Shown here: piece after piece, positions 37,201 to 60,959 of the stretch | Layout of the letters: each line of letters begins with the position of its first letter | How positions within the stretch are numbered: the stretch's first letter is position 1 | Assembly (NCBI GenBank): GCA_903813345.2 | Contig: CAIIXF020000007.1 | Location: 33,820,538 to 33,884,537 of the forward strand | From: Owenia fusiformis | Lineage: Eukaryota > Annelida > Polychaeta > Sabellida > Oweniidae | DNA length: 64,000 nt | Direction: 5' to 3' | Translations under genes and position numbers: made by a program | Notes under the pieces: model-generated | Told to the model about the DNA's origin: nothing | Databases searched by the model: none | What the model saw: the letters and a program-made list of their open reading frames with translations, nothing else

Positions 37201-40200
37201 CCGGGCGAGGTACATGTTCTGTATAATAGTGCTCACACGTTTAAGTCCACTTTCGTTAATACAGTTGTCTCCCCCGAAGAGAGCTCGCAGTTTCATTGAA
37301 TTTGACATTGCACTAATGTTTGGTACTCCATCTAGAATTGTATTTAATGTGCCCCTATTGTGCAGTCTACATTTTAAGACAAAGTGTTCAAGCGTTTCAA
37401 TTTCCTCATAGCAGCTCTCACAAAACCTATCTCTCAACGGTATCCCCTCCCATTCGCCTGTGTTAATTCTTAAGCGGCCTTGTCCGACCATTAAGCGTAC
37501 CATTAAGTTGCATCTTTTAATGAACCTTGAATCACTCCTAGCTATTGTCCACCATATACAGGGTTTCACACATTGGATAACTTCCTTATAGAGTGTTAGT
37601 TCTTTATATGTGTTAACTTCGTGTCTCCAACCATCCAAATCGCAATTCCTTATCACATTCTGCACATGGCGTTTCCATGTCAATTTTGATGGATTTGCAC
37701 CATTGTCCAGTACTTGATATATCATGTCTGTCATTCCATATCGATTCACAAGCTCCATTATGTCTCGCAACGGTGACAGTCTGTTAAGTTTAACACCATG
37801 TCTGTACATTGTAATTCTCTTGATAGCAATGCTGCGATACACAGACCCAGATATTAGAAACAATAACTGTAAAATAATATAACTCGTTAAAACTCAATCA
37901 ACTAATGTTCTTTTGAGATAATGAGGATGGTGTCGAAGAAAAAAAATAATTAAAAATTAAAAAATATCGGACACAGATAAGACACAAATAAAATCATCGA
38001 TAATCAAACTGAAGAGGTTTTACAGGGCGTTCAATAAGTACTGATAAAAATGCTGTAACTTTTTATTTTTTCAGATATCTAACTAATTATTGTTGAGTAA
38101 TATACAGTGTGTCTAAAAAAATATCTTACACTTACAAAAAGTTCAATATTTTTCATAATTTTGATTTTTCCCTAAAACATACTTTGGATATCAAAAGACA
38201 AATCTTTCTCGAATAATTTGACACCATTGAATTCAAAATCATCAAAATGAAAATTGTTCCTCAGTCAATTGTTTGCGCACTGATAGGAATTCATTCAATA
38301 AGTATATTGCATCAATCTGACAATGGGAAGTTACAGCTTTTGGTCACTCCTGTCTGGGTTCATCTTCAACTGACTTTCTCCCTATTTGAAATAGCAGAAC
38401 CAATGATATATGCCAGGGATAGATATAGTGTCCTCCCCAAAACCTTCATTAATGTCCTTTGTTGCATCCTATTTTGATTAACTTATGGTTGCATGTATAT
38501 AGAACTTGACACTGCTTCTAATTTGATGAATATCATTGATATATTCTGTTCAGCAGCCATGTTAAGTGATGCCAAGGTATCTTAGTACCAGTGTGTATTA
38601 CCCAACTGTCAAAATCGATTCAAAATAAAATTATTAATGACTGTTCACATTTGAAGTGGTTCTTTTGAAAAGATTTTCGTGCAGATCTAAACCACGGCGA
38701 ACCATCTTAGGCTCCATCCAGTACCACTTTCCTGTTAGAGTGCACTTCCTTGATGCCAAGGTATCTTAATATTATATTATGAAAATGTTCACATTTGAAG
38801 TGGTTCTTTTGAAAAGATTTTCGTGCATATCTAAACTACAGCGAACCATCTTAGGCTCCATCCAGTACCACCTTCCTGTTAGAGTGCATTCTTGTAATTC
38901 TCACAGCACAATACTCAACAACGTTCAGTAGAAAAGTTAGTCAGAAATATAAAAATTAGCAATTTTATCAGTATTTATTGAACGCCCTGTATATAGCTCT
39001 GATATGCAATATTTAGGCCTCTTGGATATAATCGCCTTTTTAAAAATCGCTTAAAATACTTCCTTGCTGACGTCCTTACTTTCGAAGACGAACACTAATC
39101 CAAATTGTTATAATAAGGGTTCCTAAATACGTAGGAGTTTTTACATGATTTATAAAGATTTTGGTTACATCTAGATAAGTATATTAAGCCTATACCGAGT
39201 TATATATTATAATTCGATAACCAGAGCCACTACAATATTATGTTTTAGATATGAAATGTCAAAATAAATTCTATGAATAAAAAATGATGATCAACTTTGT
39301 GTTTGTGAAATACCATGAACCACAAAATACCATAGACGCGGATAAATGATTAGTTTTGCGCTTAGATACATATTGAATTGAATAAAAATACTCAATCGGC
39401 CGGGCGTCGTAGTAAATATCGGAGCAATGTGACCACGGTATTACCAGGCCTGTTCTAGGGGTATAAGTGCTAGTTTAGAAGGCATTTATTTAAGGAATAA
39501 AGACCGATATTTTATAATTTATGGCGCAATGTATGACCAAAAATTATATTCTACTCATTGTTAAAAGACCGAAATCGCGTAGCAATTGCCAGAATAAAAT
39601 CTGAGGTCATATATTTGACATTAATCATGAAATCAATTCTAATATGATAGACAGACAAGAAAAACAATTATTACCACCTTACCGGTCCTATTCTAGGGTT
39701 ATGAGTGCTAGTTTAGAAGGCATTTATTTTACTATATCAACATGAGCAGTTACGTCATATTGGCGGGCCATATTGCCGGTCAATAAATAAGGGTTATGTA
39801 CTGGGAGGTTTTGGGTATGGGGTTTATCCAGAGGGAGATATGCATATCTACCTGAGGGACCGTAGGGACTGATGGTAGATGTGCATATCTCACGAGGAAT
39901 GAACCCAATATCCAAACCGACCGTACATAACTGCTTTATCGTATACCAAGTAGAGTTTTCAGGAGCATATGGCCATTTCAATAGTACAAGGTGTGAAAAT
40001 AAACAAATCATTCATATGCAAAGTCATTTTATTGCATTACCGGAAGCGGGAAGATATGCACCGGAAGCGGGAAGATATGCACCGAAGCGGGAGATATGGC
40101 GGGAGATTTGGAGGTTCTGGATATGGAAACCTCAAAATCAGGATACGGGATATATATTACCAACTTATCTCCCTAAAACTCTACTTGGTATAGGATAATG

Positions 40201-43200
40201 CATTTTACAATCGGCAATTTTCCCCGAGAAATTAGATATCGTTCAGCGCGTAAGGTTTTCTTGCTATTTCAGCTCTGGTCATTAACGGTGGTAATACTCG
40301 TAGTAACGTCATTTCTGCGAGCAATATAGAAAAATATTGGACCTTGGGCCTTCGGCGCTCAATCCAATATTTCAGTATATTGCCCTTCGAAATGACGTTA
40401 TTGTACTACTCTTTGTATTTATGAATTTTGGCGGCCATACATATTCCAATAAAGACCATTAATTCAATTGTTGTAGCTATTGTGACTTCACGTATCGTAT
40501 TAGAATTTACTATATCGACTTGACCAGTATGTGGAAATAAGATGAAATGACGTTATTAGTACTATTCAACTTAGTTTAGCAGAAATCGGTATTTTCGAAA
40601 ACGAAAGAATGTCGGCAACTATCTTGAATGAAGCTACAGTCAAAACAGAAATGTTTGGGAGTACTTTGAATTTAAAACTAAGCAATCAAATGACCATATT
40701 GAAACAGTTTATGTAAAAATCCTATACAGACCAGTTTAAGGTACAGCTGGAAAGTAACATTTTGGTAAAAAATTGCTAGTATATACCTGCACATGTTATT
40801 TTCTGGTACAAAATTAAGTATGAAGTCATGTGTGTATTTCCTTGCTTTTTTCAGGAAAGGATCATTACACTGTCTATTTTTAGTAAACCTGGAAACAGGT
40901 CAATGATAGTTCCTGTGTTGTCTGAAAACTTTGAAAGAAAAATAGAAAGTGTGGAATATCGGAATGTCCTGGAGTTCCCATTGAACTCCTACCAGATACT
41001 CTAAAAGAAGACAATGTAATGATACTTTCCTTAAAAAAGCAAGGAAATTGACACATGCCTTCATACTTTATTTTGTACCAGAAAATAACATGTGCAGGTA
41101 TAGAAATGTTTTACCAAAATGTTACTTTCCAGCTGTACCTTATGGTCAGGGTGCATGATGGGAAATTTTCTGCATCCCTCAATTGAGTCACATGTTATTT
41201 TTCAAACAAGAATCACTCCTTCCCCACATTGTCTATATATTCCAGTTTTGCACAAAGAGTGCACTTATGTGCCTAGAAAAGACTTGTGAGAAGATTTGTT
41301 TTGTAAAATGTATAAAAAACGAGAAAATTCAGTCAAAAAAATTTCTGAAAATTTTCTGAATTTTTTCACTGAATTTTCTTGTTTTTTATACACTTCATCA
41401 AAACATTCTTCTCACAAGTCTTTTCTAGGCACATAAGTGCACTCTTTGTGCAAAACTGGAAGATATATACAATGTGGGGAAGGAGTGATTCTTGTTTGAA
41501 AAATAACATGTGACTCAATTGAGGGATGCAGAAAATTTCCCATCATGCACCCTGACCTTAAGACGTTTTCATCTGGGGTTTTGTAGTGACTTATTCCGTC
41601 CCTATTAATAAATGGAGGGCATCAATGATAACACCTCTCAACCAAATGCTCCAATTTACTTGACCCACACAAAAGCAATATCCAAAAACAATTATGTATA
41701 TCATGATATCATGAGAGGTACGAGTGGTCGCACTTTATACGACCTTTCAAACGTTATTGGGGTGGGGGGGGGGCATACTCACTCTTGATTTGTGATGTGC
41801 CAGCTTTCAGAAGCATCACAGACAACTGTAGCCTTTCCCGTCTTGGGTCGGTCGCTTTTGCTTTTGGGTACGTTGCTGAGACTTATTAGACCTGATGCAT
41901 TCGTTATAATATGTTTCTAAATTCAACTGTGCTTCAAGTACGAGGCTGAACACGGAAATCGATTCTGTACAAGTGTAAGTTCAATTCACTCCAGGGAGTG
42001 TATTCAGTTGTTATATGTTACGTACATATTCATTGATGCGTGCTAAATGTTCGAGCTTGTTCGGTCAACCTGTCCTTGAATGTAATACATAATGTATAAT
42101 CATTGTGAACATAAAAACTCTTTTAGTCGTTAGTGTCCTAAACATTGTACCCCTAATTAACAAAACATTCTAGATTCTATGAGCATGTATTTTTGAAGTT
42201 ATTGATTATATCAATCATACGAGTGTACGAAATAAACGTATCAAACAAAAAGCATCCATCGTTGACACACACATTCCGTGAACACTCAAATTAATCAATT
42301 TGATGCTTCAAGCAAGGTTGACATATAGAGATTTTGTTGGGACCGCCCTCAGTGATGTTTCAATACTAATATTATCTAAACGATGTTCATTCAACAAAGA
42401 CCATATCAATATGTTTCTTTTCTGGAATATATTGATGGCAATTTCTTTCCCAATTTGTATATTACCTTGAAGTTAATTATGTCTGAAATCTGACAAAAAG
42501 TGCGAGGCGTATTTTTCATACGCTCTCTACATCTTTCACATTTACACAAAGAGTACACTAAAGGTAACCAGAAAAGAGCGTAGTGAACGTTTTGGATATT
42601 TTTATAGATATAAAAATTGGAAAATGAAGTAGCCGACTTATTTTTTATTTTTAAAAAGTAAGTCACTGGATTTTCTCGTTTTCATACATTTTATAAACGA
42701 AATATTGTCCACACTCTTTTCTCGCTACAATAGTGCAGTCTTTATGCAAAACTGAAAGTTGTAGACAACATTGGAAAGAGGTCCATATTTGAAAGTAATG
42801 TGTGGCTTCGTTAAAATTAGACTGTATAAAAATTCCCAAAAACACATCTACCTTAAAGTTGCTTGAGAGATTAAGAAAGTGTTTCCATGACTAACTTGGG
42901 GTCTGTTTTGAGAGAAAGTCCCTGGAATTAGAAATTCACAAAAATCGAGGGGATCACATTCTGCTCAATTTTGTTCATGACATTGCTAATGCGCATAAAC
43001 ATTACTAAGTACACCTTGCAACACCGTTGTGTTACAATGTAGGTACATACAATTAATGTAGTTACGTGTACAATACATAATACAACTTAATATCTTTAAC
43101 GAGCAGGTTAGACTCTTCCATACTTTTTTAAAAACTTTTCAAAAGCAGTACTAGTTTTAATATGTATTCAGTCATAAATCACGTCAACACAACCAACGTG

Positions 43201-46200
43201 CAATATTTTGCCTAAACCTGTCATGAACACGTACAATCAAAATATTTGTGCGTCAATCAAGCCGTGAAAATAAGCAACCAATATCAAAATATAAGAAAGC
43301 CCAAGATACATTGTATTTGTAAAAAAGGGAACGTTACATAATGTCAGGTTCATATTTGCTGCGATTCATCGGTCGGACCTCGGCCGATTGAGTATTTTGT
43401 TTCAAACAAATACAATTTTGAACAAAACACTCAATCGGCCAGACACCTATGTGACCCAGCCATAACGTGGGCTAATTGTCACGAAATGGTTGTTCTAGCT
43501 AACTGTGATATAAATGCTAATTGCATATATTTTGTAATCTCTCAATTTATAACATGTTAGGCTATGTCAGATATGTGTGAGCGTAAAATATTAAATCGAC
43601 TCCTGTATGATATATATATAGGTCACGTCTCACAAGGCTTATACCTTATCTCAAATCCAGCCTTTAAATATATTAAAACCTGTTGTACATTGTAGGGAGA
43701 AGTGTTAGTTTAAACAAGTCAGTCAATGGAAGTACTAGTGCTGTAACTCGACTAAAAACTAGCCATCATAATTACAAATAAAATTCATCTATGGTCATTA
43801 CCCCATAACAAATCGTGGGAATACTAAAACCGATAAGACCGATATTTTATAATTTATGGCGCAATGTATGACCAAAAATTATATTCTACTCATTGTTAAA
43901 AGACCGAAATCGCGTAGCAATTGCCAGAATAAAATCTGAGGTCATATATTTGACATTAATCATGAAATCAATTCTAATATGATAGACAGACAAGAAAAAC
44001 AATTATTACCACCTTACCGGTCCTATTCTAGGGTTATGAGTGCTAGTTTAGAAGGCATTTATTTTACTATATCAACATGAGCAGTTACGTCATATTGGCG
44101 GGCCATATTGCCGGTCAATAAATAAGGGTTATGTACTGGGAGGTTTTGGGTATGGGGTTTATCCAGAGGGAGATATGCATATCTACCTGAGGGACCGTAG
44201 GGACTGATGGTAGATGTGCATATCTCACGAGGAATGAACCCAATATCCAAACCGACCGTACATAACTGCTTTATCGTATACCAAGTAGAGTTTTCAGGAG
44301 CATATGGCCATTTCAATAGTACAAGGTGTGAAAATAAACAAATCATTCATATGCAAAGTCATTTTATTGCATTACCGGAAGCGGGAAGATATGCACCGGA
44401 AGCGGGAAGATATGCACCGAAGCGGGAGATATGGCGGGAGATTTGGAGGTTCTGGATATGGAAACCTCAAAATCAGGATACGGGATATATATTACCAACT
44501 TATCTCCCTAAAACTCTACTTGGTATAGGATAATGCATTTTACAATCGGCAATTTTCCCCGAGAAATTAGATATCGTTCAGCGCGTAAGGTTTTCTTGCT
44601 ATTTCAGCTCTGGTCATTAACGGTGGTAATACTCGTAGTAACGTCATTTCTGCGAGCAATATAGAAAAATATTGGACCTTGGGCCTTCGGCGCTCAATCC
44701 AATATTTCAGTATATTGCCCTTCGAAATGACGTTATTGTACTACTCTTTGTATTTATGAATTTTGGCGGCCATACATATTCCAATAAAGACCATTAATTC
44801 AATTGTTGTAGCTATTGTGACTTCACGTATCGTATTAGAATTTACTATATCGACTTGACCAGTATGTGGAAATAAGATGAAATGACGTTATTAGTACTAT
44901 TCAACTTAGTTTAGCAGAAATCGGTATTTTCGAAAACGAAAGAATGTCGGCAACTATCTTGAATGAAGCTACAGTCAAAACAGAAATGTTTGGGAGTACT
45001 TTGAATTTAAAACTAAGCAATCAAATGACCATATTGAAACAGTTTATGTAAAAATCCTATACAGACCAGTTTAAGGTACAGCTGGAAAGTAACATTTTGG
45101 TAAAAAATTGCTAGTATATACCTGCACATGTTATTTTCTGGTACAAAATTAAGTATGAAGTCATGTGTGTATTTCCTTGCTTTTTTCAGGAAAGGATCAT
45201 TACACTGTCTATTTTTAGTAAACCTGGAAACAGGTCAATGATAGTTCCTGTGTTGTCTGAAAACTTTGAAAGAAAAATAGAAAGTGTGGAATATCGGAAT
45301 GTCCTGGAGTTCCCATTGAACTCCTACCAGATACTCTAAAAGAAGACAATGTAATGATACTTTCCTTAAAAAAGCAAGGAAATTGACACATGCCTTCATA
45401 CTTTATTTTGTACCAGAAAATAACATGTGCAGGTATAGAAATGTTTTACCAAAATGTTACTTTCCAGCTGTACCTTATGGTCAGGGTGCATGATGGGAAA
45501 TTTTCTGCATCCCTCAATTGAGTCACATGTTATTTTTCAAACAAGAATCACTCCTTCCCCACATTGTCTATATATTCCAGTTTTGCACAAAGAGTGCACT
45601 TATGTGCCTAGAAAAGACTTGTGAGAAGATTTGTTTTGTAAAATGTATAAAAAACGAGAAAATTCAGTCAAAAAAATTTCTGAAAATTTTCTGAATTTTT
45701 TCACTGAATTTTCTTGTTTTTTATACACTTCATCAAAACATTCTTCTCACAAGTCTTTTCTAGGCACATAAGTGCACTCTTTGTGCAAAACTGGAAGATA
45801 TATACAATGTGGGGAAGGAGTGATTCTTGTTTGAAAAATAACATGTGACTCAATTGAGGGATGCAGAAAATTTCCCATCATGCACCCTGACCTTAAGACG
45901 TTTTCATCTGGGGTTTTGTAGTGACTTATTCCGTCCCTATTAATAAATGGAGGGCATCAATGATAACACCTCTCAACCAAATGCTCCAATTTACTTGACC
46001 CACACAAAAGCAATATCCAAAAACAATTATGTATATCATGATATCATGAGAGGTACGAGTGGTCGCACTTTATACGACCTTTCAAACGTTATTGGGGTGG
46101 GGGGGGGGGGCATACTCACTCTTGATTTGTGATGTGCCAGCTTTCAGAAGCATCACAGACAACTGTAGCCTTTCCCGTCTTGGGTCGGTCGCTTTTGCTT

Positions 46201-49200
46201 TTGGGTACGTTGCTGAGACTTATTAGACCTGATGCATTCGTTATAATATGTTTCTAAATTCAACTGTGCTTCAAGTACGAGGCTGAACACGGAAATCGAT
46301 TCTGTACAAGTGTAAGTTCAATTCACTCCAGGGAGTGTATTCAGTTGTTATATGTTACGTACATATTCATTGATGCGTGCTAAATGTTCGAGCTTGTTCG
46401 GTCAACCTGTCCTTGAATGTAATACATAATGTATAATCATTGTGAACATAAAAACTCTTTTAGTCGTTAGTGTCCTAAACATTGTACCCCTAATTAACAA
46501 AACATTCTAGATTCTATGAGCATGTATTTTTGAAGTTATTGATTATATCAATCATACGAGTGTACGAAATAAACGTATCAAACAAAAAGCATCCATCGTT
46601 GACACACACATTCCGTGAACACTCAAATTAATCAATTTGATGCTTCAAGCAAGGTTGACATATAGAGATTTTGTTGGGACCGCCCTCAGTGATGTTTCAA
46701 TACTAATATTATCTAAACGATGTTCATTCAACAAAGACCATATCAATATGTTTCTTTTCTGGAATATATTGATGGCAATTTCTTTCCCAATTTGTATATT
46801 ACCTTGAAGTTAATTATGTCTGAAATCTGACAAAAAGTGCGAGGCGTATTTTTCATACGCTCTCTACATCTTTCACATTTACACAAAGAGTACACTAAAG
46901 GTAACCAGAAAAGAGCGTAGTGAACGTTTTGGATATTTTTATAGATATAAAAATTGGAAAATGAAGTAGCCGACTTATTTTTTATTTTTAAAAAGTAAGT
47001 CACTGGATTTTCTCGTTTTCATACATTTTATAAACGAAATATTGTCCACACTCTTTTCTCGCTACAATAGTGCAGTCTTTATGCAAAACTGAAAGTTGTA
47101 GACAACATTGGAAAGAGGTCCATATTTGAAAGTAATGTGTGGCTTCGTTAAAATTAGACTGTATAAAAATTCCCAAAAACACATCTACCTTAAAGTTGCT
47201 TGAGAGATTAAGAAAGTGTTTCCATGACTAACTTGGGGTCTGTTTTGAGAGAAAGTCCCTGGAATTAGAAATTCACAAAAATCGAGGGGATCACATTCTG
47301 CTCAATTTTGTTCATGACATTGCTAATGCGCATAAACATTACTAAGTACACCTTGCAACACCGTTGTGTTACAATGTAGGTACATACAATTAATGTAGTT
47401 ACGTGTACAATACATAATACAACTTAATATCTTTAACGAGCAGGTTAGACTCTTCCATACTTTTTTAAAAACTTTTCAAAAGCAGTACTAGTTTTAATAT
47501 GTATTCAGTCATAAATCACGTCAACACAACCAACGTGCAATATTTTGCCTAAACCTGTCATGAGCACGTACAATCAAAATATTTGTGCGTCAATCAAGCC
47601 GTGAAAATAAGCAACCAATATCAAAATATAAGAAAGCCCAAGATACATTGTATTTGTAAAAAAGGGAACGTTACATAATGTCAGGTTCATATTTGCTGCG
47701 ATTCATCGGTCGGACCTCGGCCGATTGAGTATTTTGTTTCAAACAAATACAATTTTGAACAAAACACTCAATCGGCCAGACACCTATGTGACCCAGCCAT
47801 AACGTGGGCTAATTGTCACGAAATGGTTGTTCTAGCTAACTGTGATATAAATGCTAATTGCATATATTTTGTAATCTCTCAATTTATAACATGTTAGGCT
47901 ATGTCAGATATGTGTGAGCGTAAAATATTAAATCGACTCCTGTATGATATATATATAGGTCACGTCTCACAAGGCTTATACCTTATCTCAAATCCAGCCT
48001 TTAAATATATTAAAACCTGTTGTACATTGTAGGGAGAAGTGTTAGTTTAAACAAGTCAGTCAATGGAAGTACTAGTGCTGTAACTCGACTAAAAACTAGC
48101 CATCATAATTACAAATAAAATTCATCTATGGTCATTACCCCATAACAAATCGTGGGAATACTAAAATAAATTTAAATGTATCAGGTCTTATCACTATACA
48201 AGAAATGTATTTTATTGCGTTTGAGTCACGTAGTACGAATTAGCAAGAAAATGATTTCTATTTGGTCGTTTAACGTTATGAAAATAGAACGGTAATTGTA
48301 AATGCAGTATTACTGAGTGAACGGTGTATGTATTAGTGAATAAGATCACTTAGGCTCTAAGCGGCGAGATAAACTAAGTCTATGTCTTTAAAATGTTTAT
48401 GAAAAATTTTCGGACAAACCTTTTTCCTTATAACCTCAATTGTTGAGGATTTCAAAGATTTTTAGCATCATGTTCTCAACAGAATAATAATGGGCATTAA
48501 TGAATTTGTGATGCTAAAGATAGAAAAGGTTTTACAGGTGGTCGGAAAGTTTTTAATTTTGAAATGAGATTTGTTATTACTACATTATCGAGAAAGCTTA
48601 TCAATTGTCCATTATAAACATTTTTGTATATTGTCCAGCGGCGACACAGCCGCAGAGCCACATTTTGGCAACCAGCATGTATATACGACAACATTATTGT
48701 ATGTAAATAATACACTCAGTTTTTCTGCAGCAGCCGCAGAGCCACATCCTAGTTAATGTTATGTTTCTTAAGTGAAGGTTAGAATAGAAATCTCAATACT
48801 TAACTTGAAAGGCGACTACGTCAACCGCAGATCAATTTACCCCCCAGTCACATTTGCCGCACAGTGGCCGTAAGTAGACCGCAGATCAATTATATCAGTG
48901 AAGGGAAGCCGTAGATTTTATAACTCGGAGTTACAATATTTGTTGATTTCTGCGGTCCCCGTAGAAATCAAGAGGCCGTACGTAGCCAGACCGCATAAAG
49001 GTCATTTCATTGCAATCCGTTCAAATCGTTAGCTACAAAAAATTGATTGACTAAACGTATGATACATAAATGAGAGCTAAGAAAAAAGCGCAAGAAAAAA
49101 CAGTGAAATGTACTTGAAGTGGCGATTGTGTTTTCTGCTTACCAGTTACCCAGCTCTAATAGTGCGATATAAGGTGACTTGATTATGCAGATGAGAAGAC

Positions 49201-52200
49201 CCCATTGGTTTCCCGGTCAAACAATCAAAACAGACGGGGACAAGCTTTGTTTGAACTGTTACTATCAGACTATATCTAGTATTTCTTTGTTTCGTGACCA
49301 GAAATCCACTTCAACTATAGGGAATATATTCCGTTATAAAGATAGATTGTTTTCACTTACCAATCATTCACTAACATGTGCTGTCATATTCAGCTCTGGC
49401 CTCCATGTCAAAAGGGGGAAGGGTAACCCCCACACTGAATAAATTCAAAGTTCGCGCACCCTTCTTTTTCATTGATGATAGAACAGTTTACGATAAAAGG
49501 CCGAACGCAGAAAACATTGAAATTACGAACGCGGTACGTTCGGGGTATTTCTCTCGGCCTTGGAATTACTTAAGAAAAATAGACCATCCATAGACGACAT
49601 GGCAACGACATCTAATTTTCGTCGAGTGAATCATTTCCAAAGATAATCAATTTTAAGAGAAAATTGCACATAATGGTTTTGCGAGACGACCTCTATCTAA
49701 CACAAGTAAAATTCTACTAAAGAGATCGCTCAAAAATATTGAAAAAATGTAACCATTTTTCTCATCAATTTTAAGACATACTTCTCATGGATCGAATCAC
49801 GATTTCTTTACAGAAAATAAGACTTTGCTTTATTATGTGGTTACGATATATGTTATTTTGCTGCTTAAAAAACGTTAAGTCATTCTATTTACGCACTGAA
49901 AAACGGTACAAAATATAAGATGGAATTTCATCACTTCGCCAAAAAAGTTCTACAAAATGCGTTTTTCATAATTCAACAATAATATTTTAGAATATAAAAA
50001 TTCATCACACCTCCGATATTGTCTGAAAATTCCATAATGATCGTGTAGAAAATAAAAAAGTTGTACTCATCTAAAAAGCTCTCTCTATCGAGCCTCTTCT
50101 TTTCACCAAACTCACCGTTAGGTGGTTACTAAAAAATTTTGCTGAAAATATTCGAACCCCTCCTGTCAAATCCGAATTAAAATGATATCAGCATTTATAC
50201 GAGGGTTGATCCAAAAGTTCCGAACCGTTTGCTCTAAAAATCTTAATATTTTATGAATATTGTTCATATTTGGCCTCAACCACCCCATATATAGTAGTTC
50301 CATTTTGTGTAAAAATAAACAATTAATTTGACAAGTAACATAGGTATCTGGTTACCATAGCAACATGACAACAGGGTATGTGGAGCAAGAGAATGATACA
50401 TTGTAGAGTTGGAAAAAAGTTGACACTTGAAGAGTGTATATAGGGTATCAAATGTATTTCAAATTTGTTACTCATGCCTATTAATCAATTATTCTTTCAT
50501 TAGACCAATGCTATACGTTTGATCTGATATCATACAAGCTACAGTTGGCAACTATGATATCATTGACCAGAAGAATGCCTTGCGCCAAAAGCAGTCAAAT
50601 TAAAGCATAAAATCCAGTTCGATTTTGACAATGCGAAATTCCATTCCTCAATACTTACTCAAACGTCAATGAAAATATGCACATGCCTTTGCTTACCCTT
50701 GCATCCTTCTCACTATATCTGCCTCCCTCTGACGTTGATCTTTATATTAACCTGAAGTACTTACAAGACAAGACAAGACATGCTTTTGAATATTAAATGA
50801 AGTCTCTCTTGCTGTTCTTGAGTGGCTTTCTGAGACAGGTGATGGTGAATTTAAAGATGGGTTTGATCAAAGGGTCAGCAGATATACTAAGTGTATATAA
50901 GGGGATAAGAGACTTTTTTTGCGAAATTAAATCAAGAACTAACAATGAAATATGGACAAATTGAAAAAATAATTGGTTAATAGGCAGGCATGACTGACAC
51001 ATTTGAAATTTGGTACCCTGTAACACTCTTTTAGAGTCAACTTTTTTCCACCTCTACTATATGTCGTACTATTGCTCCACATACCCTGTTGTCGTGTTAC
51101 TATGGTAACCAGTTACCTATGTTGCTGGTCACATTAATTGCTTATTTTTACACATAATGAAACTACTATTTATAGGGTGGTTATGGCCAAATATGAACAA
51201 TTTTCATAAAGTATTAAGATTTTTAGAGCAAACGGTTCGGAACTTTTGGATCAACCCTCGTATATTTAATAATAACAAAATCACATTCAAATGATTTATT
51301 CACCTGATCTTATTCAATGACTTTTCTTGAATGATATAGGGGATTCATTGCGCAGGGAACAGGCGATTTTTTCTCCATCTGGTTCACCCTAAATACTATT
51401 GTGGACTCTTTCCATTATTAAATTATTGATGCTAATAATTTTCCCTATTATTTTATTTGCTATTAAAAAATTGGCAGTTGTTTCAACTTGTTTGGGAACA
51501 TTAACAACTTAATATTCAACTAAACAACAAAATTTGGTAGACTTACTTGTTGGTTTGGAGGACAGGAAAAACTGTATTGCCAACTCCACATCCAACTTCT
51601 AGTATTCTCATGTGAGCCTTCTCACCAGGATATACATCACCTTCACCTTTATCACCTGTAATGGTATCATTTGAACCTTCCTCATAACACACTTCAGGTT
51701 CTTTTGTTTTCAAATCATTAGCTAAAGAACTCGAAGCTTTATCTATCTGTGCACTGTCTGATTTGGGTTCATTGTTTATCTCTCTTGCAGTGTTTAATGA
51801 AAATTTTGTCTTTTCTTTATCATCATTAGTGTTAGTTGTATCTCCTATTTTTAGAACGGTCTCTTTTGCAGTCAATATTGTTGAATTGGATTCTGAGCTG
51901 TCTTCATCTATGTTTGACGCTTCCATAGCATCAGTCAGTGTTGGAGGGGCAAGTTCTGGAAATTCTGTGAATAACCAGTGTCGATCTTTAAAAAATCTAT
52001 TTTGATGTATTGTATAGAAACTGTCCCAATAATCCCCAGCTTCATTTTCATATTTCTCTGAAATAATGATAATAGTAACTTAATTTAACAAGCAATCTAT
52101 CTATTAATTTGAAATGATATTGATTACCTAAATATTTCAACTTTTAAATATAAAATATAAATTACATCCAGGTTCAAATACTTACCAAACATTTCCTGGC

Positions 52201-55200: not shown

Positions 55201-58168
55201 CTTGGCGAATCAATGTAACTTTGGATAAGCCTTAAAATGATATATGACACATACTATGATGACACTGGTATATGTCTGCCTAGGGGGGGGCCCCATACTT
55301 TCGGGACACCCTGTATATTAATTGATAAGTCGTTTAATTGGCATATTTTCTTGAATTTTAACATTTAATGTCCTAAACTCCCACAAACTGCAGAAAAGTA
55401 TACATCAAAAATCATATTTACCAAAATGAGTGTCTCCAAGGCTTCATACCAGCGTATGCATAATTCATTTGTCACGAGTTTGAGCTGAGATTTCGCCAAA
55501 ATGAAGTAGGCTTAGGGTAGTCATTGCCAGGTTAAAATGTTTATTGTGGTAAGCTTGTAAGTGCTCAGAAGTAAATAATTCATGTGCGCAAAATAATCAA
55601 ATAATCTGATTGGTTTAAACTTTGCTGCGCACTAGATGTGTGCCATGTTTTTTTCTAGTGATTTCGTTTCGTTTCATGGAGTTTGCATGTCAGTGTAACT
55701 TCCGCAAAAATGGCAGACCATGGACAGAACTAACAAGTAGAATCACTTTGACATTTCATGAGAACTTTTTACCTATATTAGCAAAACTTTTGTTTTATTT
55801 GTGCATTCTTATCTATCAGATAAGAGTCTCAGGGGTATGTAGGCAAATTCATTTTGATAGGAGCACTCTGTTTAGTTTGAAAATGCACCCTTTTTATTAC
55901 AGTGGGGAGCATAAAGAATTACAAAAGCTATGAAAATTACATGCTGTCACACATGTAATTAATTTTTACCTCAGTGTATTCAGTGCTCTATTTTCTCCGT
56001 CCTAGTAAGTCCAAATATAGTGGAATTTGTGTTCATAATGACAAATAAGAGCTTAAAAATTTGAAGTGGATATTCACATGTAAATATTCACGAATGAAAA
56101 CATTCGTTCGATTTGGTAGGAATTTATCCATCATTTGCAGGTATGAAGCTGTGGATTCATTTATTGTGCTTCTTGAAGTGAATGGGAATTATTTTTCTAC
56201 TGCTTGGGAGAGTTTGAGACTTGAAACTTAGAATTTAGCTCATTGTGACAACTTTTGAGGGTTGAGTTTTATTTTTGGTCCACACTTTATATATCAGCTC
56301 TTTACATTTGTATCAGCACTTTAGAGTCAATATGTCTAAATCCAAACAAACCTGAACGGGTTGCAAACAATGGCAAGCAAATCATTGAATTGAATAATAG
56401 CCCCTCGCCCTCTACTACCTCTATATAACATTTATATCCTGAAAGATACCATATAATGATATATACCAACACTCTTGTCTTAAATGATAAAATGATCAAT
56501 TATGATGATTTAGGTGTTTGGAATTACCCCCACAAACCCTATGCCTTGAAATAAATAGATGACACTTATAAATCAATTATATTTGGGGTTATTGATATGC
56601 AGGGGTGTTAGGATCCAGTATCATTACTTCAGAGTACCATATTATGATATACCATCAATCTAACAAGTAAAACAATGAAGTTTAGTTAAGGTGCTATGGA
56701 ACTTAACAGGAAATGACAAAACAGGAAGTGACAATTTTTTTTGCATTTTTAGACATTTTTTGAACAAAGATAACAGAGTTCTGTTTTGACCTCCAGTCAA
56801 TTCAACTAGTTCCAAATACCATTTACAGGTCCAGGATCACAATGTGCATGGTCAGAATGACCCTAAACATGATGAAATAACGTTTTCAGCCCTATGAAAA
56901 TGTGACTGAAAAATAGCTAAAAGTAGGAGGGTAGGAAAGGTGAAAGGTCACTGAACAGAATCTTTTGAATTTTTCAGAAAATGTGCCCAATATATTACTC
57001 TAAATGATACAATCTTTGAAATTTTAAAAGCGATTTATTTTCCTTTTTATGACTGTCATTTTTGTTTAAGACAATTTTCTAAAATTTTAAAGATTGTATC
57101 AGTTGGAGCATTATATTGGGCACATTTTCTGAAAAATTCAAAAGATTCTGTTCAGTGACCTTCCCTAGCTCCTACTTTTAGCTTTTTTTTCAGTCACACT
57201 TTCAAAGGGCTAAAAAGGTTATTTCATCATGTTTAGGGTCATTCTGACCCTGCACATTGTGATCCTGGACCTGTAAATGGTAATTGGAACTAGTTGAATC
57301 GACTGGAGGTCAAAACACAACTCTGTTATCTTTGTTCAAAAAATGTCTAAAAATGCAAAAAAAATTGTGACTTCCTGTTTTGTCATTTCCTGTTAACTTC
57401 CATAGCACCTTAAGTGTTTGGAAATACCCCCATGCAAGTGTTCGGAATTACCCCCTAAAAATCTCCTGTTTGGATTTACCCCCATAAAATACATTGTATT
57501 TAAAGTGGTATAACCCAGATTTTTGACAATTTATCGGAATATTTTTTTTTCAAATGCATTATACAGCGTCTAATTCACATAACATATATATAAAATTATT
57601 CCACAGATGTGCAGTACAGCCATGCAAGCTAACTACATTTTTTGATGGGGGTGTTTGGAAATAGACGTATTGACTCTAAGATTTTCGACATCTATTTAGA
57701 ATATTTATTTTCATCTTGTCCAGTCCTGTATACAATCTGCCCTTATCTTTTTGCTGTAGTAATGTTGAAATTATGGAATAGATTCTCTGAGAGTGGCGAC
57801 ATGTCTTCATCTCTACCATTTTGCGTTTGACACCCCTCGTTTTGGGCGAGTCCAAGTAAACTGCACATCCGGGTGATTAGAAAAGGGACATTTTTTTTTA
57901 AATCGAGCGGCAACAAAGATACTTCTGGTCAAACTGAGTTTATGACGAAACTTATGAAAGAATCAATAAAAGGTAAGTGGTATACATTAGGCGGATGCCA
58001 AAAATTAAACGTGGAGCCAATTTGAAACTTCAGAATGCTTTCTTTGATTCAAAATCACAAAAAAGTCGAAAATCTTAGTCGTAATAAATTTTACCAGGCA
58101 TTGTGTTCAAACACATTGTTTGACTCCGTCAGGAATCTGTTACCAAATTGAGGTCGTTTGTCTTCCAT
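22133..58168 (-). CDS. METTL2: METTL2-type tRNA N3-methylcytidine (m3C32) methyltransferase
   Basis: SAM-dependent enzyme that in this family makes m3C at position 32 in the anticodon loop of tRNA-Thr and tRNA-Arg. Coding exons in transcript order are 58095-58168, 52186-52277, 51547-52057, 26301-26361, 25490-25629, 23773-23879, 22674-22739 and 22133-22275. All are GT-AG, phases agree, and the total is 397 codons plus stop (human METTL2 proteins are about 378). Landmarks: FGNRFL at residues 8-13; [10 protein letters not shown] near 25-34; [13 protein letters not shown] near 82-94; SAM motif [13 protein letters not shown] at 206-217; motif II region [75 protein letters not shown]; and the C-terminus [20 protein letters not shown]. 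Residues about 100-200 form an acidic, Ser/Asn/Lys-rich insert of low conservation. Intron 3 is about 25.2 kb. METTL6 and METTL8 are paralogues; the [12 protein letters not shown] end and full N-terminal extension favour METTL2/8. Confidence 0.95.
22674..22739 (-). CDS. METTL2: METTL2 exon 7
   Basis: 66 nt, phase 1 to 1. It encodes [20 protein letters not shown], near-invariant in the METTL2/6/8 family ([14 protein letters not shown]). Confidence 0.95.
22804..23472. mobile_element. Long palindromic element in METTL2 intron 6
   Basis: The left end ccatttttgatcgagagaga continues through gtgtttcattacttagcaac. The right end carries the complement (gttgctaagtaatgaaacac to tctctctcgatcaaaaatgg). 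Arm length is about 110 bp. No coding sequence. Confidence 0.8.
23773..23879 (-). CDS. METTL2: METTL2 exon 6
   Basis: 107 nt, phase 2 to 1. It encodes [19 protein letters not shown] and [21 protein letters not shown] and [13 protein letters not shown] are conserved in the catalytic domain of this methyltransferase family. Confidence 0.95.
23930..24700. repeat. Degenerate 'aggtcactgaaggtcaaatc' repeat in METTL2 intron 5
   Basis: Repeated words (tcaaaggtcactgaaggtca; ttcaaaatggcagccaagta; acctaatcagata) relate this stretch to the arrays at 26,440-27,060 and 18,919-20,215. It ends near ccaccaccaggtggctt. Confidence 0.6.
25490..25629 (-). CDS. METTL2: METTL2 exon 5
   Basis: 140 nt, phase 0 to 2. 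It encodes [19 protein letters not shown] and [18 protein letters not shown]. It covers SAM-fold strands 3 and 4 of the Rossmann-like domain. Confidence 0.94.
26301..26361 (-). CDS. METTL2: METTL2 exon 4
   Basis: 61 nt, phase 2 to 0. Joined to exon 3 it reads [19 protein letters not shown], matching the family's N-D-P-G-x-F-V-Y-x-C-D-F-S stretch exactly. It lies about 25.2 kb from exon 3. Confidence 0.94.
26440..27060. repeat. ~120-bp tandem repeat in METTL2 intron 3
   Basis: About four degenerate units carrying aagtcagatttgaactt, agatgattttgaaaaaa and ttttgaccttgagaaggtc variants. The array ends at ccaccaaaatatgtcaccac and ttttggtggtggcataaaaa, a small hairpin at 27,020-27,058. Confidence 0.75.
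27470..27600. mobile_element. Element end with 'ggccgtagggagagggggttcg'
   Basis: The sequence begins aaggccgtagggagaggggg and has an inverted pair of ttcatgtgaacccccc type. Similar sequence (cgaacccctcctgtcaaatcc) borders the repeat at 50,140-50,170, suggesting both belong to one larger element that includes the fold-back at 28.2-29.0 kb. Confidence 0.45.
28200..29035. mobile_element. Long fold-back element, copy B (uninterrupted)
   Basis: The arms are complementary across a centre near 28,600: aggaaaatatggttgattt at 28,541 against aaatcaaccaaaatttcct at 28,651, and ggttaaagagaa against ttggtttaagagaa farther out. It matches copy A at 9,540-11,680 in reverse orientation and lacks the LINE. 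Confidence 0.75.
29000..29180. repeat. Repeat shared with 49,900-50,100
   Basis: The stretch aggctcgatagagagagctttttagatg and the following 150 nt match the reverse complement of about 49,920-50,100 (ctaaaaagctctctctatcg). It adjoins fold-back copy B. Confidence 0.65.
29200..30700. other. METTL2 intron 3, nothing recognised
   Basis: AT-rich. A 91-codon frame at 29,521-29,796 starts with TTG and shows no recognisable domain. Confidence 0.5.
30715..30880. mobile_element. Short TIR element, 'caggtgtgaaaga' family, copy 2
   Basis: It carries cctggtgtaaacgggtagga at one end and tttctttcacacctgg at the other. It matches 6,280-6,445 in the reverse direction. Confidence 0.6.
30874..31006. mobile_element. 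Palindromic MITE, 'cggccgattgagt' family, copy 3
   Basis: It runs from cctggtcacatttgctcaga to ccgagcaaatgtggg, with tcggccggcg and ggggccgattgagtat. It directly abuts the preceding element. Confidence 0.7.
31714..32230. mobile_element. Near-perfect ~517-bp fold-back element
   Basis: The ends are atcactggtgatcc and ggatcaccagtgat. The arms (about 240 bp each) agree almost throughout, for example agaagacaacagaatcgtcg at 31,911 against its complement at 32,009, leaving a loop of a few tens of bases near 31,970. No coding potential is recognised. Confidence 0.9.
32231..34020. other. METTL2 intron 3, nothing recognised
   Basis: AT-rich. The 140-codon frame at 32,516-32,938 is rich in Ile, Lys and Asn, as expected of chance frames, and has no domain signature. 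Confidence 0.5.
34020..35950. repeat. ~97-bp minisatellite, about 20 units, with higher-order repeat
   Basis: A ctttctttctttc run (34,035) precedes units carrying caattgtcatgccaaactc, gtttatttcgtattatctac and tttcacaagctaattccactc. The block at about 34,826-35,117 recurs at 35,209-35,500 with only a few changes (offset 383 bp), so expansion went by multi-unit steps. Confidence 0.92.
35950..37140. other. METTL2 intron 3, nothing recognised
   Basis: Non-repetitive AT-rich sequence, with a g-run near 37,120. No exon with compatible splice sites was recognised. Confidence 0.5.
37186..37863 (-). pseudogene. LINE C-terminal fragment (second family)
   Basis: An open frame of about 225 codons on the minus strand, without a natural start, ends at a TAG (37,186-37,188). 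Its C-terminal part reads [20 protein letters not shown] then [15 protein letters not shown]. That is the 'R-x-C-x-x-C...E-T-x-E-H-F-x-x-x-C' cluster at the end of many LINE ORF2 proteins. It differs clearly from the LINE at 10-11 kb. Reverse-transcriptase motifs are missing, so this is a 5'-truncated copy. Confidence 0.75.
38021..38991. mobile_element. TA-bounded Tc1/mariner-type element with internal duplication
   Basis: Termini are tacagggcgttcaataagta and the complement of tatttattgaacgccctgta. Inside, a ~140-bp segment (cacatttgaagtggttcttt to cctgttagagtgca) occurs twice, at about 38,645 and 38,790. No transposase motif was recognised. Confidence 0.8.
39371..39440. mobile_element. Half copy of the 'cggccgattgagt' MITE
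   Basis: Only one arm is kept: atactcaatcggccgggcgtc to ggagcaatgtgaccacggta. Confidence 0.55.
39485..39665. mobile_element. Decayed 'taaagaccgag' MITE at the left edge of the duplication
   Basis: It matches the element at 18,705-18,905 (agaccgatattttataattt; agaccgaaatcgcgtagcaa) with an internal deletion. The left boundary of the 4.33-kb duplication falls within it. Confidence 0.65.
40736..41142. mobile_element. Palindromic element 'ttaaggtacagctgg', copy 1
   Basis: Complementary arms: ttaaggtacagctggaaagt and actttccagctgtacctta. Further in are tgcacatgttattttctggt and its complement. Related copies lie at 45,071-45,477 and 58,726-59,137. Confidence 0.85.
41144..41568. mobile_element. 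Second palindromic element, 'ggtcagggtgcatgatggg', copy 1
   Basis: The arms begin ggtcagggtgcatgatggga and end tcccatcatgcaccctgacc, match for about 190 bp each, and meet at an AT-rich loop near 41,340. It lies at the edge of the preceding palindrome, whose terminal 'ttaag' is found again after this one, so it may have inserted into it. Confidence 0.88.
43341..43463. mobile_element. Palindromic MITE, 'cggccgattgagt' family, in unit 1
   Basis: It contains cggccgattgagtattttgt and the complement caaaacactcaatcggcc, and ends near tatgtgacccagccat. Confidence 0.7.
45071..45477. mobile_element. Palindromic element 'ttaaggtacagctgg', copy 2
   Basis: The duplicate of 40,736-41,142 inside duplication unit 2. 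Confidence 0.85.
45479..45903. mobile_element. Second palindromic element, copy 2
   Basis: The duplicate of 41,144-41,568 inside duplication unit 2. Confidence 0.85.
47678..47800. mobile_element. Palindromic MITE, 'cggccgattgagt' family, in unit 2
   Basis: The duplicate of 43,341-43,463 inside duplication unit 2. Confidence 0.7.
48170..49600. other. METTL2 intron 3, short repeats only
   Basis: Contains a repeated agccgcagagccacat (48,649 and 48,730) and several 'accgcagatcaatt' words (48,825-48,890). No exon was recognised. Confidence 0.5.
49620..50170. repeat. Repeat related to 27.47-29.18 kb
   Basis: About 49,920-50,100 is the reverse complement of 29,000-29,180, and 50,150 carries the 'cgaacccctcctg' end word. 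It is probably a partial copy of the larger element containing the fold-back at 28.2 kb. Confidence 0.6.
50198..51262. mobile_element. Mariner element with long inverted termini
   Basis: TA-bounded. The left end tacgagggttgatccaaaag and the right end cttttggatcaaccctcgta continue as arms for about 80 bp (to catatttggcc). The 'cgagggtNNNNcaaaagt' terminus is usual for mariner-family elements. Confidence 0.88.
50620..50790 (+). pseudogene. Mariner transposase relic
   Basis: Plus-strand frames give [17 protein letters not shown], resembling the D-N-A-x-x-H block around the second catalytic Asp. After a frame change, [17 protein letters not shown] resembles PYSPDLAPSDFxLFxxL, with the third catalytic Asp. 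Frameshifts show it is dead. Confidence 0.6.
51547..52057 (-). CDS. METTL2: METTL2 exon 3 (N-domain, acidic insert, SAM motif I)
   Basis: 511 nt, phase 1 to 2. It starts [20 protein letters not shown], then [13 protein letters not shown], then about 100 residues rich in Ser, Asp, Glu, Asn and Lys, then [20 protein letters not shown]. The acidic insert is longer than in human METTL2 and probably disordered. Confidence 0.95.
52186..52277 (-). CDS. METTL2: METTL2 exon 2
   Basis: 92 nt, phase 2 to 1. The junction with exon 1 makes [12 protein letters not shown], a family landmark. It continues [17 protein letters not shown]. Confidence 0.93.
52790..52980. repeat. Partial copy of the 56.7-57.4 kb palindrome
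   Basis: Carries tgtcatttcctgttaggtta and ttgaactgagataacagagt, both matching the arms of the palindrome at 56,686-57,414. The copy is incomplete and ends at the adjoining mariner element. Confidence 0.55.
52985..54150. mobile_element. Mariner-type element in METTL2 intron 1
   Basis: TA-bounded, tacagggtgttccacaagta and the complement of gttacttttggaacacccta. The arms extend over cagtcctgctggcatttt-like sequence. A t-run lies at 53,035-53,055. Confidence 0.82.
53405..53620 (-). pseudogene. Mariner-type transposase C-terminal relic
   Basis: Minus strand from about 53,620 reads [16 protein letters not shown], a decayed PPYSPDLAPSDFxLF signature. It then gives [17 protein letters not shown] and [14 protein letters not shown], where the family has 'F-x-x-x-F-x-x-W-x-x-R-W'. 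An in-frame stop breaks it and the key Asp is not secure. Confidence 0.6.
54668..55315. mobile_element. TA-bounded fold-back MITE ('tacagggtgtcccgaaagt')
   Basis: The left end tacagggtgtcccgaaagta is mirrored by tactttcgggacaccctgta. The arms continue past ggggccccccctaggcagac and extend about 220 bp. The interior has no transposase. Confidence 0.9.
55322..55905. repeat. Left arm of a 6.5-kb inverted repeat around METTL2 exon 1
   Basis: The order (gataagtcgtttaattggca, ccaaaatgagtgtctccaag, tgtgtgccatgtttttttct, ggagcactctgtttagtttg) recurs in reverse complement at 61,253-61,845. A partial third copy starts near 63,590. Confidence 0.8.
56686..57414. mobile_element. ~730-bp palindromic element in METTL2 intron 1
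   Basis: Ends ttaaggtgctatggaactta and the near-complement taacttccatagcaccttaa. The arms run more than 300 bp, for example ggtccaggatcacaatgtgc at 56,839 against its complement. The centre is near 57,050. Confidence 0.92.
58095..58168 (-). CDS. METTL2: METTL2 exon 1 (start codon)
   Basis: 74 nt ending in phase 2 at gtaaaa. It encodes [20 protein letters not shown] then EHNA. The 'K-R-x-Q-F-G-x-R-F-L' string aligns with residues soon after the human start, so this ATG is preferred. It lies about 5.8 kb upstream of exon 2. Confidence 0.9.
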
Positions 58169-58464: not shown

Positions 58465-58725
58465 TTAAACAAAACCGTAAACAAAAAGCGTTCGTTAATT
58501 TTATCCACAGCTTAACCTTCAGCCATTTTTACAAAAAGTTGCAAATTGCCGTATTTGAAGAAGAAGAACGTATTTTGTGTATCTTCATGGTGCTATAACT
58601 TGTGTTATGACGTACTGCGATCAACGAATAAATCTCCAACATTGAGAATCATAGGTAAGGAAGTACATTTACTGACATTTTTTGGGCATAATTTGATAGT
58701 AAATGATACATATTTGCAGTAATGG

Positions 58726-59137
58726 TTAAGGTTCAGCTGGAAAGTAACATTTTGGTAAAAAATTGCTATACCTGCACATGTTATTTTCTGGTACATAATT
58801 AAGTATGAAGGCATGTGTGTATTTCCTTGTTTTTTTCAGGAAAGTATCATTACACTGTCTACTTTTAGTAAACCTGGAAACATGTCAATGGTAGCTCCTG
58901 TGTTGTCTGGAAACTTTGAAAGAAAATTTGGAAAAACAGGAAGTGTGTAATATCAGAATTCCCTGGAGTTCCCTTTGAACGCCTACCAGATATTCTAAAA
59001 GAAGACAATGTAATGATACTTTCCTGAAAAAAGCAAGGAAATTGATACATGCCTTCATACTTTATTTTGTACCGGAAAATAACATGTGCAGGTATAGCAA
59101 TTTTTTACCAAAATGTTACTTTCCAGCTGTACCTTAA
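58726..59137. mobile_element. Palindromic element 'ttaaggtacagctgg', copy 3
   Basis: Arms ttaaggttcagctggaaagt and actttccagctgtaccttaa. It is closely similar to the copies at 40,736 and 45,071, with small differences, and lacks the second palindrome beside it. Confidence 0.85.
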
Positions 59138-59350
59138 AATAACGAAATAATGAAATGTTACCGTGTGTCTACTGAGCAATTCGTTCTATGTCATCTCTCC
59201 TGCTAGGTTACATTGTGGACTGCAGCCAAACAAGACAACGAAGGTAACAACATTTCGATATTGATCTTAGCAGAATTTTTGGAAATTTAGATCGTCCATT
59301 TTGCAAGCTTACATGACTGATCGCGTAACACGTGTCTGATCACGTGACAC

Positions 59351-59614
59351 ATGTCTGATCACGTGACTAGTTACTGTATCGATAATGACGTGTCACCCAA
59401 CCATGTCTTCAAGGAAAGCGGTAGTAAATATTTTGGAAAATGTTTTGCGAGGATGACTACTCATAGAAGAGGGCACGCCGAGATAGCAATGTCAAACATT
59501 GTAGGGAGGGCTGCTAAAGTCACTGGGTATTCCAAATCAGTTTTTTCAATGAAACTGCTCAATTGTAATTTTTGTCTGCGTATTGATCTATTGATTCATA
59601 AAGACCTGAAATGA
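59351..59614 (+). CDS. Short ORF with a helix-turn-helix-like string, possible transposase relic
   Basis: The frame opens at TTG rather than ATG. It contains GHAEIAMSNIVGRAAKVTGY followed by SKSVF. The 'R-A-A-x-x-T-G-x-S-x' pattern resembles helix-turn-helix segments in Tc1/mariner-type transposases and some regulators. It sits inside the inverted repeat 59,138-60,477, so it may be a leftover of that element's own gene. Nothing shows expression. Confidence 0.25.
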   Translation: MSDHVTSYCIDNDVSPNHVFKESGSKYFGKCFARMTTHRRGHAEIAMSNIVGRAAKVTGYSKSVFSMKLLNCNFCLRIDLLIHKDLK

Positions 59615-59712
59615 TGCATTCAAATAAGACCGCCTCTTGAAAGAAAACACTACTAATAAAGTGGTGAAAAAACAACGAACTAAAGTTGAAAGATCGCAAC
59701 GTTCGCTACTTT

Positions 59713-60280
59713 CCCGGGGGGTTCACTATATATAAACCTTGACGGGGATCCTCGGCGCATGTGGGGTACCTTTTTCAACGTTTGGTATGGCAATGGACCC
59801 ATATTTTAGGATTTGGTATGGGAATGCCTGGAAATTTCTGACTTCTGAGGTATGGCAATGGTCGGACTTTTGCTCTTCTGGTATGAGAATTGTCGTTGTA
59901 GATACATTACCTAACATTCGTGGTATGGCATTGGTCCAGTAGTTGCAAATTTGAAGTTGTTTTGGATCATTTCCCGAAGTATCTTCTTTTCCAGGGCCTT
60001 CTTCACTTTTGAATTTTATATGGTATGGCATTGGTCCTACATTTTGACATTTGGTATGGCATTGGTCCCATAATTGGGCATTTGGTATGGCATTGGTCCT
60101 ATATTTGGACATTTGGTATGGCATTGGTCCTATATTTGGACATTTGGTATGGCCTTTGGGCGTTATTTTGGTTGGTATGGGAACATATTGAAATTTGACA
60201 GATTGGTATGGGAACATATTGATATTTGAGGCTTCAGCCTAGGACCCCCGTCGAGTTTTACATACAGTGAACCCCCCGGG
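59713..60280. mobile_element. TIR element carrying a minisatellite, 8-bp target duplication
   Basis: The left end cccggggggttcactatata and the right end tacagtgaaccccccgggg form terminal inverted repeats of about 40 bp, continuing over gacggggatcc and ggacccccgtc. The octamer gctacttt lies on both sides (59,705-59,712 and 60,281-60,288). The interior is almost wholly tandem repeat, with no transposase. Confidence 0.82.
59775..60215. repeat. ~30-bp 'tttggtatggcattggtcc' minisatellite
   Basis: The word ggtatggcattggtcc and close variants recur at about 59,785, 59,815, 59,850, 59,925, 60,020, 60,052, 60,084 and 60,115. Spacing is 31-32 bp in the most regular part (60,020-60,150), and the array is degenerate at both ends. 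Confidence 0.88.
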
Positions 60281-60959
60281 GCTACTTTGTTCTATTCCGG
60301 AAATCTCCAAGGGGCTGCAAATGGGAAATTTTTAAGATTTAGATTTTATAACCTCAGAATACTGCCTTCAGCGTCGTGTTTGCCTGAGTTCCACAATGTA
60401 ACCTAGCAGGAGGGATGACATAGAACAAACTGCTAAGTAGACAAACGGTTAACATTTCATTATTTCATTATTTTAACCATATGAACTTATCTGTCGAATA
60501 AGTGTTTTATTTTTAGTAATATAAATCCGACCGTTGTATGCTGTTTTTCGATGTTCCTTGTTCTTATTTGGATATTTATTTTATATCATTTTCTTTGTAT
60601 AGTGTTGTAGATATAATATGTAACAAATTGTGGGAAACGCTTTCTTGGCCTGTCTGGGTAACCATACCAACCAAAGTCACACAAATTATTGATTTATTAC
60701 GACACTGCTTTTCTTCCGTCTGAATCTTCGTGCAACAAATACTTATGATTTCGTTTTAATATAGTTTTACATCTAGACTATAAGATTAACCCGGAAGTGA
60801 CCTTGGTGGGCGATAATGAGAAAATATTAAAAGTCATATGAGTTTCGTTGTGAAATTAATATACATTTTTATTTATCAATGAACATGAGTACCATGTACA
60901 TGTATATTAGTCTTGATTTACATATTTAGGGTAGTTGAACACGAAGAAAATTGTTATTA

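Follow-up and report, generated by a model that had tools for sequence, protein, structure and literature searches.

Results

A flush 8-bp duplication and matched inverted termini delimit the element

The locus at positions 59713-60280 raised the question of whether a minisatellite lying between inverted termini is the cargo of a transposable element, and we addressed it within a 64-kb window, that is, the whole stretch of 64,000 nucleotides of Owenia fusiformis DNA that was analysed. The initial annotation had described inverted termini of about 40 bp together with an 8-bp target duplication, and both were borne out. The terminal inverted repeats (TIRs) of this 568-bp element extend over 44 nt and are 86% complementary (38/44 positions), with the outermost 15 positions of both being identical, and GCTACTTT forms a perfect, non-palindromic direct repeat, the target site duplication (TSD), flush with both tips (Table 1). 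Thus, six of the 44 arm positions differ, yet the TSD is perfect. The tips begin with the palindrome CCCGGG. When up to three mismatches were allowed, the 18-base tip had two sites in the window, both of them the termini of the element itself, as compared with a mean of 0.00 in 100 shuffles, and no second copy of the tip pair was found in the window.

As a check against chance, we collected identical 8-mer pairs whose starts were 60-3000 bp apart and compared the 18 bp inside each pair as inverted tips. The window contained 12,621 such pairs, and at most five tip mismatches were seen in nine, of which six were self-complementary 8-mers in inverted repeats, two had 5 mismatches and the last, the pair belonging to the element, had 1. 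The GCTACTTT pair was the sole non-palindromic one with three or fewer mismatches, which places the termini and duplication beyond chance in this window. Folding of the element as single-stranded DNA gave a z of -3.03, with 1 of 100 shuffles equally good, and both termini were paired in the minimum-energy as well as in the centroid structure; this predicted stability is probably due to the TIRs.

Table 1. Coordinates of the features in and around the element, as positions of the window
Feature	Position	Strand	Basis
Left target site duplication GCTACTTT	59705..59712		Read from sequence, 8-mer pair check
Left terminal inverted repeat, tip CCCGGGGGGTTCACT	59713..59756	+	Inverted-repeat comparison
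170-codon open frame over array, judged a repeat by-product	59726..60238	-	Pfam, shuffles
Left diverged units, GGTATG at 59784, 59815, 59849, 59880, 59922	59782..59952	+	Motif positions, unit alignment
Stretch without recognisable units	59953..60020		100-bp spacing
Minisatellite core of homogeneous units (period 31, 4.3 copies)	60021..60153	+	TRF, unit alignment
Right diverged units, GGTATG at 60146, 60174, 60205; last two 81% identical	60144..60236	+	Motif positions, unit alignment
Right terminal inverted repeat	60237..60280	-	Inverted-repeat comparison
Right target site duplication GCTACTTT	60281..60288		Read from sequence, 8-mer pair check

A one-directional 31-bp array dominates the interior

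Between the termini, the motif GGTATG occurs 12 times in one orientation and never reversed, from 59784 to about 60236, and its successive spacings are 31, 34, 31, 42, 100, 31, 31, 31, 31, 28 and 31 bp, so that 7 of the 11 are exactly 31 bp. TRF reported only 60021-60168 in the element, including an overlapping 62-bp row, and the period-31 core in it showed 92% matches. The core units at 60022, 60053, 60084 and 60115 share 81-100% pairwise identity, two being fully identical, while the identity of the remaining unit pairs lies between 31 and 81%, and both ends of the array are degenerate. The spacing of 100 bp from 59922 to 60022 encloses about 70 bp with no recognisable unit. Hence the interior had rightly been described as dominated by a repeat, but the period is 31 bp rather than 31-32 bp, and its description as almost only repeat slightly overstated the case, given the unit-free stretch and the degenerate ends.

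When up to two mismatches were allowed, the 13-mer GGTATGGCATTGG matched at 12 places in the window, of which 8 lie in the element and 4 outside it (shuffle control: mean 1.14, largest 5 matches). A comparison of the unit with the TIRs yielded no good match, the best being 9 of 12 bases, a value that has no shuffle control.

The element lies among further inverted repeats

The element is enclosed by a further pair of inverted arms, 59134-59236 and 60373-60476, of about 104 bp and alike at 94 of 105 positions (90%), and it seems to have inserted into an older inverted-repeat element formed by these arms. A further inverted-repeat element, at 58730-59133 (58726-59137 with its flanks), adjoins the left arm; it has the tips GGTWCAGCTGG and TTAA on either side, and its relatives at 40736-41142 and 45071-45477 are about 91% alike. 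The relative at 40736 has TTAA to its left and TTAT to its right, and this TTAT tells slightly against TTAA being a strict target. Since ATGG and then TTAAAATAA stand on the two sides of 58730-59133, as in the right arm, this element too may have gone into an arm of the older one, a weak suggestion, as the shared extension is four bases long. The window also holds long, imperfect, foldback-like palindromes at 56686-57413, 31714-32230 and 41139-41562, which are 88-94% self-inverted.

Other repeats in the window include a direct tandem duplication of 4.33 kb (39500-43829 and 43835-48166, 99.93% identical), which is either a very recent event or an assembly artefact, and a complex tandem array at 34128-35934, for which the periods reported by TRF overlap and run from 68 to 383 bp, including 82-83, 219, 297 and 383 bp. 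Retrotransposon remains lie at 10092-11333 on the plus strand (RVT_1 match, E 1.5e-09) and at 37186-37893 on the minus strand, the latter supported solely by a zf-RVT match below threshold (E 0.25). As to host genes, the window looks eukaryotic: two frames of the minus strand match the ANF_receptor domain in consecutive portions (E 4.3e-23 and 7.3e-09), as would be expected of split exons, and the probable exons, from a receptor whose ligand-binding domain is of the ANF_receptor type, lie at 4617-4991 and 7407-7868; among the best 60 of 156 solved relatives of the frame with an E of 4.3e-23, kainate and metabotropic glutamate receptors are foremost. An open frame at 51543-52079 on the minus strand resembles a methyltransferase exon, possibly METTL2-like, with a Pfam match below threshold (E 0.14).

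The duplication length suits several superfamilies, and the tips differ from hAT and Merlin termini

Terminal tips of the hAT type are CAG/TAG-like, and the P-type tip is not known to resemble CCCGGG. The element begins with CCCGGGGGG and lacks a tip of this hAT type. Merlin elements are described as having a conserved terminal 5'-GG-3' and a TSD of 8 or 9 bp (PMC8101967), whereas here CCC is flush with the TSD, and no flush duplication was seen when the ends were moved to the G run in the manner of Merlin. As far as tested, then, the tips fit no standard terminus, in agreement with the initial annotation, which had also read the 8-bp duplication as fitting hAT-like or P-like integration. The TSD length does suit both of these, as 8 bp is given as the usual length for hAT (PMC12730594) and has been reported for P elements (PMC1562414), but it is common also to Mutator-like elements (8-9 bp; PMC5225508), Merlin and Zisupton (KDZ), for which 8 bp is described. 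In Repbase, a non-autonomous element is classified by the length of its TSD together with its first 11 bases, and on length the element agrees with hAT, Mutator-like (MULE), P and Zisupton (KDZ) alike. Tandem repeats inside both TIRs, as in Muta1, were not found, the unit being absent from the TIRs and all 12 units having one orientation. The length of the TSD is compatible with hAT, Mutator-like, P, Merlin and Zisupton elements alike, the terminal GG of Merlin does not fit, and we do not assign the element among these superfamilies.

Searches of other sequence collections

We scanned viral contigs (four scans) and prokaryote contigs (two scans) for tip and repeat patterns and obtained only unrelated matches, an absence that says little about the host since the collections are viral and prokaryotic. 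The scans returned 20 loci, comprising 16 viral and 1 prokaryote locus with the two-unit pattern and 3 viral loci with the tip pattern, while three other scans gave 0 stretches. In the first match of each of the 16 viral stretches the unit recurs at a 33-base step, so we set them aside as unrelated; from their sequence, they read like a putative coding repeat rich in Lys, Gly and Met. The prokaryote locus, in a Sediminibacterium MAG (L017), was rejected as a chance match to two units, and the three viral loci (L018-L020), found with the 15-base tip plus one base, each contain GGGGGTTCAC once and so lack a paired terminus. None of the 20 loci resembled the element outside the pattern used to find them. 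When the element and its TSDs were compared with all of these loci by BLAST, no match had an E under 0.06; a distant-mode comparison of the element with phage records gave no match, and Rfam gave 0 matches at gathering score over 58500-60800.

In the literature, we found no mention of these termini or of such a family, the sequence-level search being one by short strings only that did not extend to Repbase or most subscription journals. The short tip and unit strings returned only a paper on a Bacillus phage holin, which holds one 13-base string and was discarded.

Discussion

A probable MITE-like transposon with an internal array

Matched termini, a flush 8-bp duplication, a one-directional 31-bp array between the termini and the lack of a recognisable gene can all be read directly from the DNA, and the anatomy supports the earlier proposal of a TIR element most of whose interior is a minisatellite. 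We conclude that 59713-60280 is very probably a non-autonomous, MITE-like, cut-and-paste DNA transposon with a minisatellite inside, inserted by a trans-acting transposase with an 8-bp stagger. This conclusion rests on a TIR and TSD anatomy beyond chance, on an array with a homogeneous core and decayed edges, on the presence of other inverted-repeat elements nearby and on the precedent of published MITEs with tandem repeats. As in a MITE, a 44-bp TIR and a perfect, flush 8-bp TSD enclose no transposase: the 568 bp have a single frame of at least 110 aa, which is without a Pfam match. In the window, no transposase domain was found in the nine frames scanned with Pfam, out of 16 of at least 110 aa. 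Counting against our conclusion are the single copy in the 64-kb window, whereas a transposon family would be expected to have more, the differences between the TIR arms despite the perfect TSD, and the antisense frame discussed below, which is longer than most nulls and leaves a small opening for coding.

As to mechanism, a transposase supplied in trans would cut the target with an 8-bp stagger and insert the element, within which the array would expand through slippage or unequal exchange. We infer this growth from the near-identical core units flanked by diverged ones, and, since the termini would be enough for mobility, we also infer that the array may ride as passive cargo.

Alternative explanations

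That the locus is no transposon at all, but a minisatellite lying by chance within an inverted repeat, or else a foldback from a local duplication, might be argued from its single copy and from the many other inverted repeats in the window, but we consider this very unlikely, because a flush, non-palindromic 8-bp repeat with such well-matched tips was unique among the 12,621 pairs. Similarly slight, and if anything slighter, is the probability that the element encodes a protein of its own in the antisense frame of 170 codons, which spans nearly the whole element and is its sole frame of at least 110 aa. Of 2000 dinucleotide shuffles only 7, and of 2000 permutations of repeat blocks only 49, produced a frame of at least 170 codons, a length thus rare in the nulls; the window, however, has five open runs of this length or more, the frame itself included, and Pfam gave no match to the 170-aa product at E up to 1. 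Moreover, as the unit measures 31 bp, the reading frame changes from one unit to the next, so that a repeated peptide is not preserved. On the Pfam result together with the shuffles and permutations we rejected coding and judged the frame, with a small reservation, to be a by-product of the repeat and not a gene.

Two further explanations are variants of the MITE-like reading, and their odds therefore overlap with it. The minisatellite could have expanded at this locus only after insertion, the family as a whole being without an array, and the near-identical core units do point to recent growth; we regard this as possible though doubtful, in view of the diverged units on either side of the core, which make part of the array look old while the TSD is still perfect. 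It appears less probable, indeed unlikely, that the GGTATG units are not passive cargo but functional subterminal repeats of the kind that a hAT or Mutator-like transposase binds. Such repeats are described as targets of the BED domains of the Hermes (hAT) transposase, and the Mutator-like Muta1 is described as having subterminal tandem repeats of 12 bp and a terminal motif that forms an imperfect palindrome (PMC5225508), to which the palindromic tip of our element may be compared. The Muta1 repeats, however, lie within both inverted TIRs, while the 12 units here all run one way and none is in the TIRs, which makes them unlike paired binding sites at both ends.

Relation to known elements

Returning to the MITE-like transposon that we favour, its design had been taken as unusual, but MITEs with tandem repeats are already in print (PMC9659126, PMC4596501). 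MITEs that contain tandem repeats or were their source are listed in a review for Xenopus, ants, bivalves, Lepidoptera and rye, the animal examples including Xmix/Xstir and miDNA4 of Xenopus, CvA/Pearl of bivalves and the (GTCY)n MITEs of Lepidoptera (PMC9659126). Like the Owenia element, these are non-autonomous, have inverted repeats and carry, or have given rise to, a tandem array; they differ in host and, as far as described, in sequence, and the review files miDNA4 under Tc1-mariner and CvA under Pearl (PMC9659126). For rice, another review cites Inukai 2004 on the spreading of minisatellites by transposable elements. In the BrickBuilt MITE of Porphyromonas gingivalis the body is likewise a minisatellite, and its leader and tail include inverted ends (PMC4596501); in contrast to our element it is bacterial, has a 23-bp unit and is described with 19 occurrences in one strain, versus one copy in the Owenia window.

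Among elements with comparable duplications, Muta1 and its relatives, Mutator-like elements of Aedes aegypti with many non-autonomous derivatives, share an 8-9 bp TSD, a palindromic terminal motif and tandem repeats (PMC5225508), but the latter are part of both 145-bp TIRs, whereas those in Owenia are internal, one-directional and outside the TIRs. Merlin shares an 8-9 bp TSD, and copies of one family are described with internal 163-bp tandem repeats (PMC8101967), but its conserved terminal GG contrasts with the CCC at the TSD-flush tip. Given the tandem-repeat MITEs of the review, BrickBuilt and the cited work in rice, the general design of a MITE with a tandem repeat is already known and our element adds one more example.

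Only tentatively, and with little confidence, do we suggest that the element represents an as yet undescribed family, marked by CCCGGG tips and 8-bp duplications, in which array length varies from copy to copy and from which independent 31-bp satellite arrays have been seeded at other sites of the host genome. With one copy to go by, the element is a clean example but an ordinary one. Should there be further copies, a comparison of their array lengths with their ages would reveal whether a transposon can spread a growing tandem repeat through the genome, a MITE route to satellites of the kind already proposed for Xenopus and bivalves (PMC9659126).
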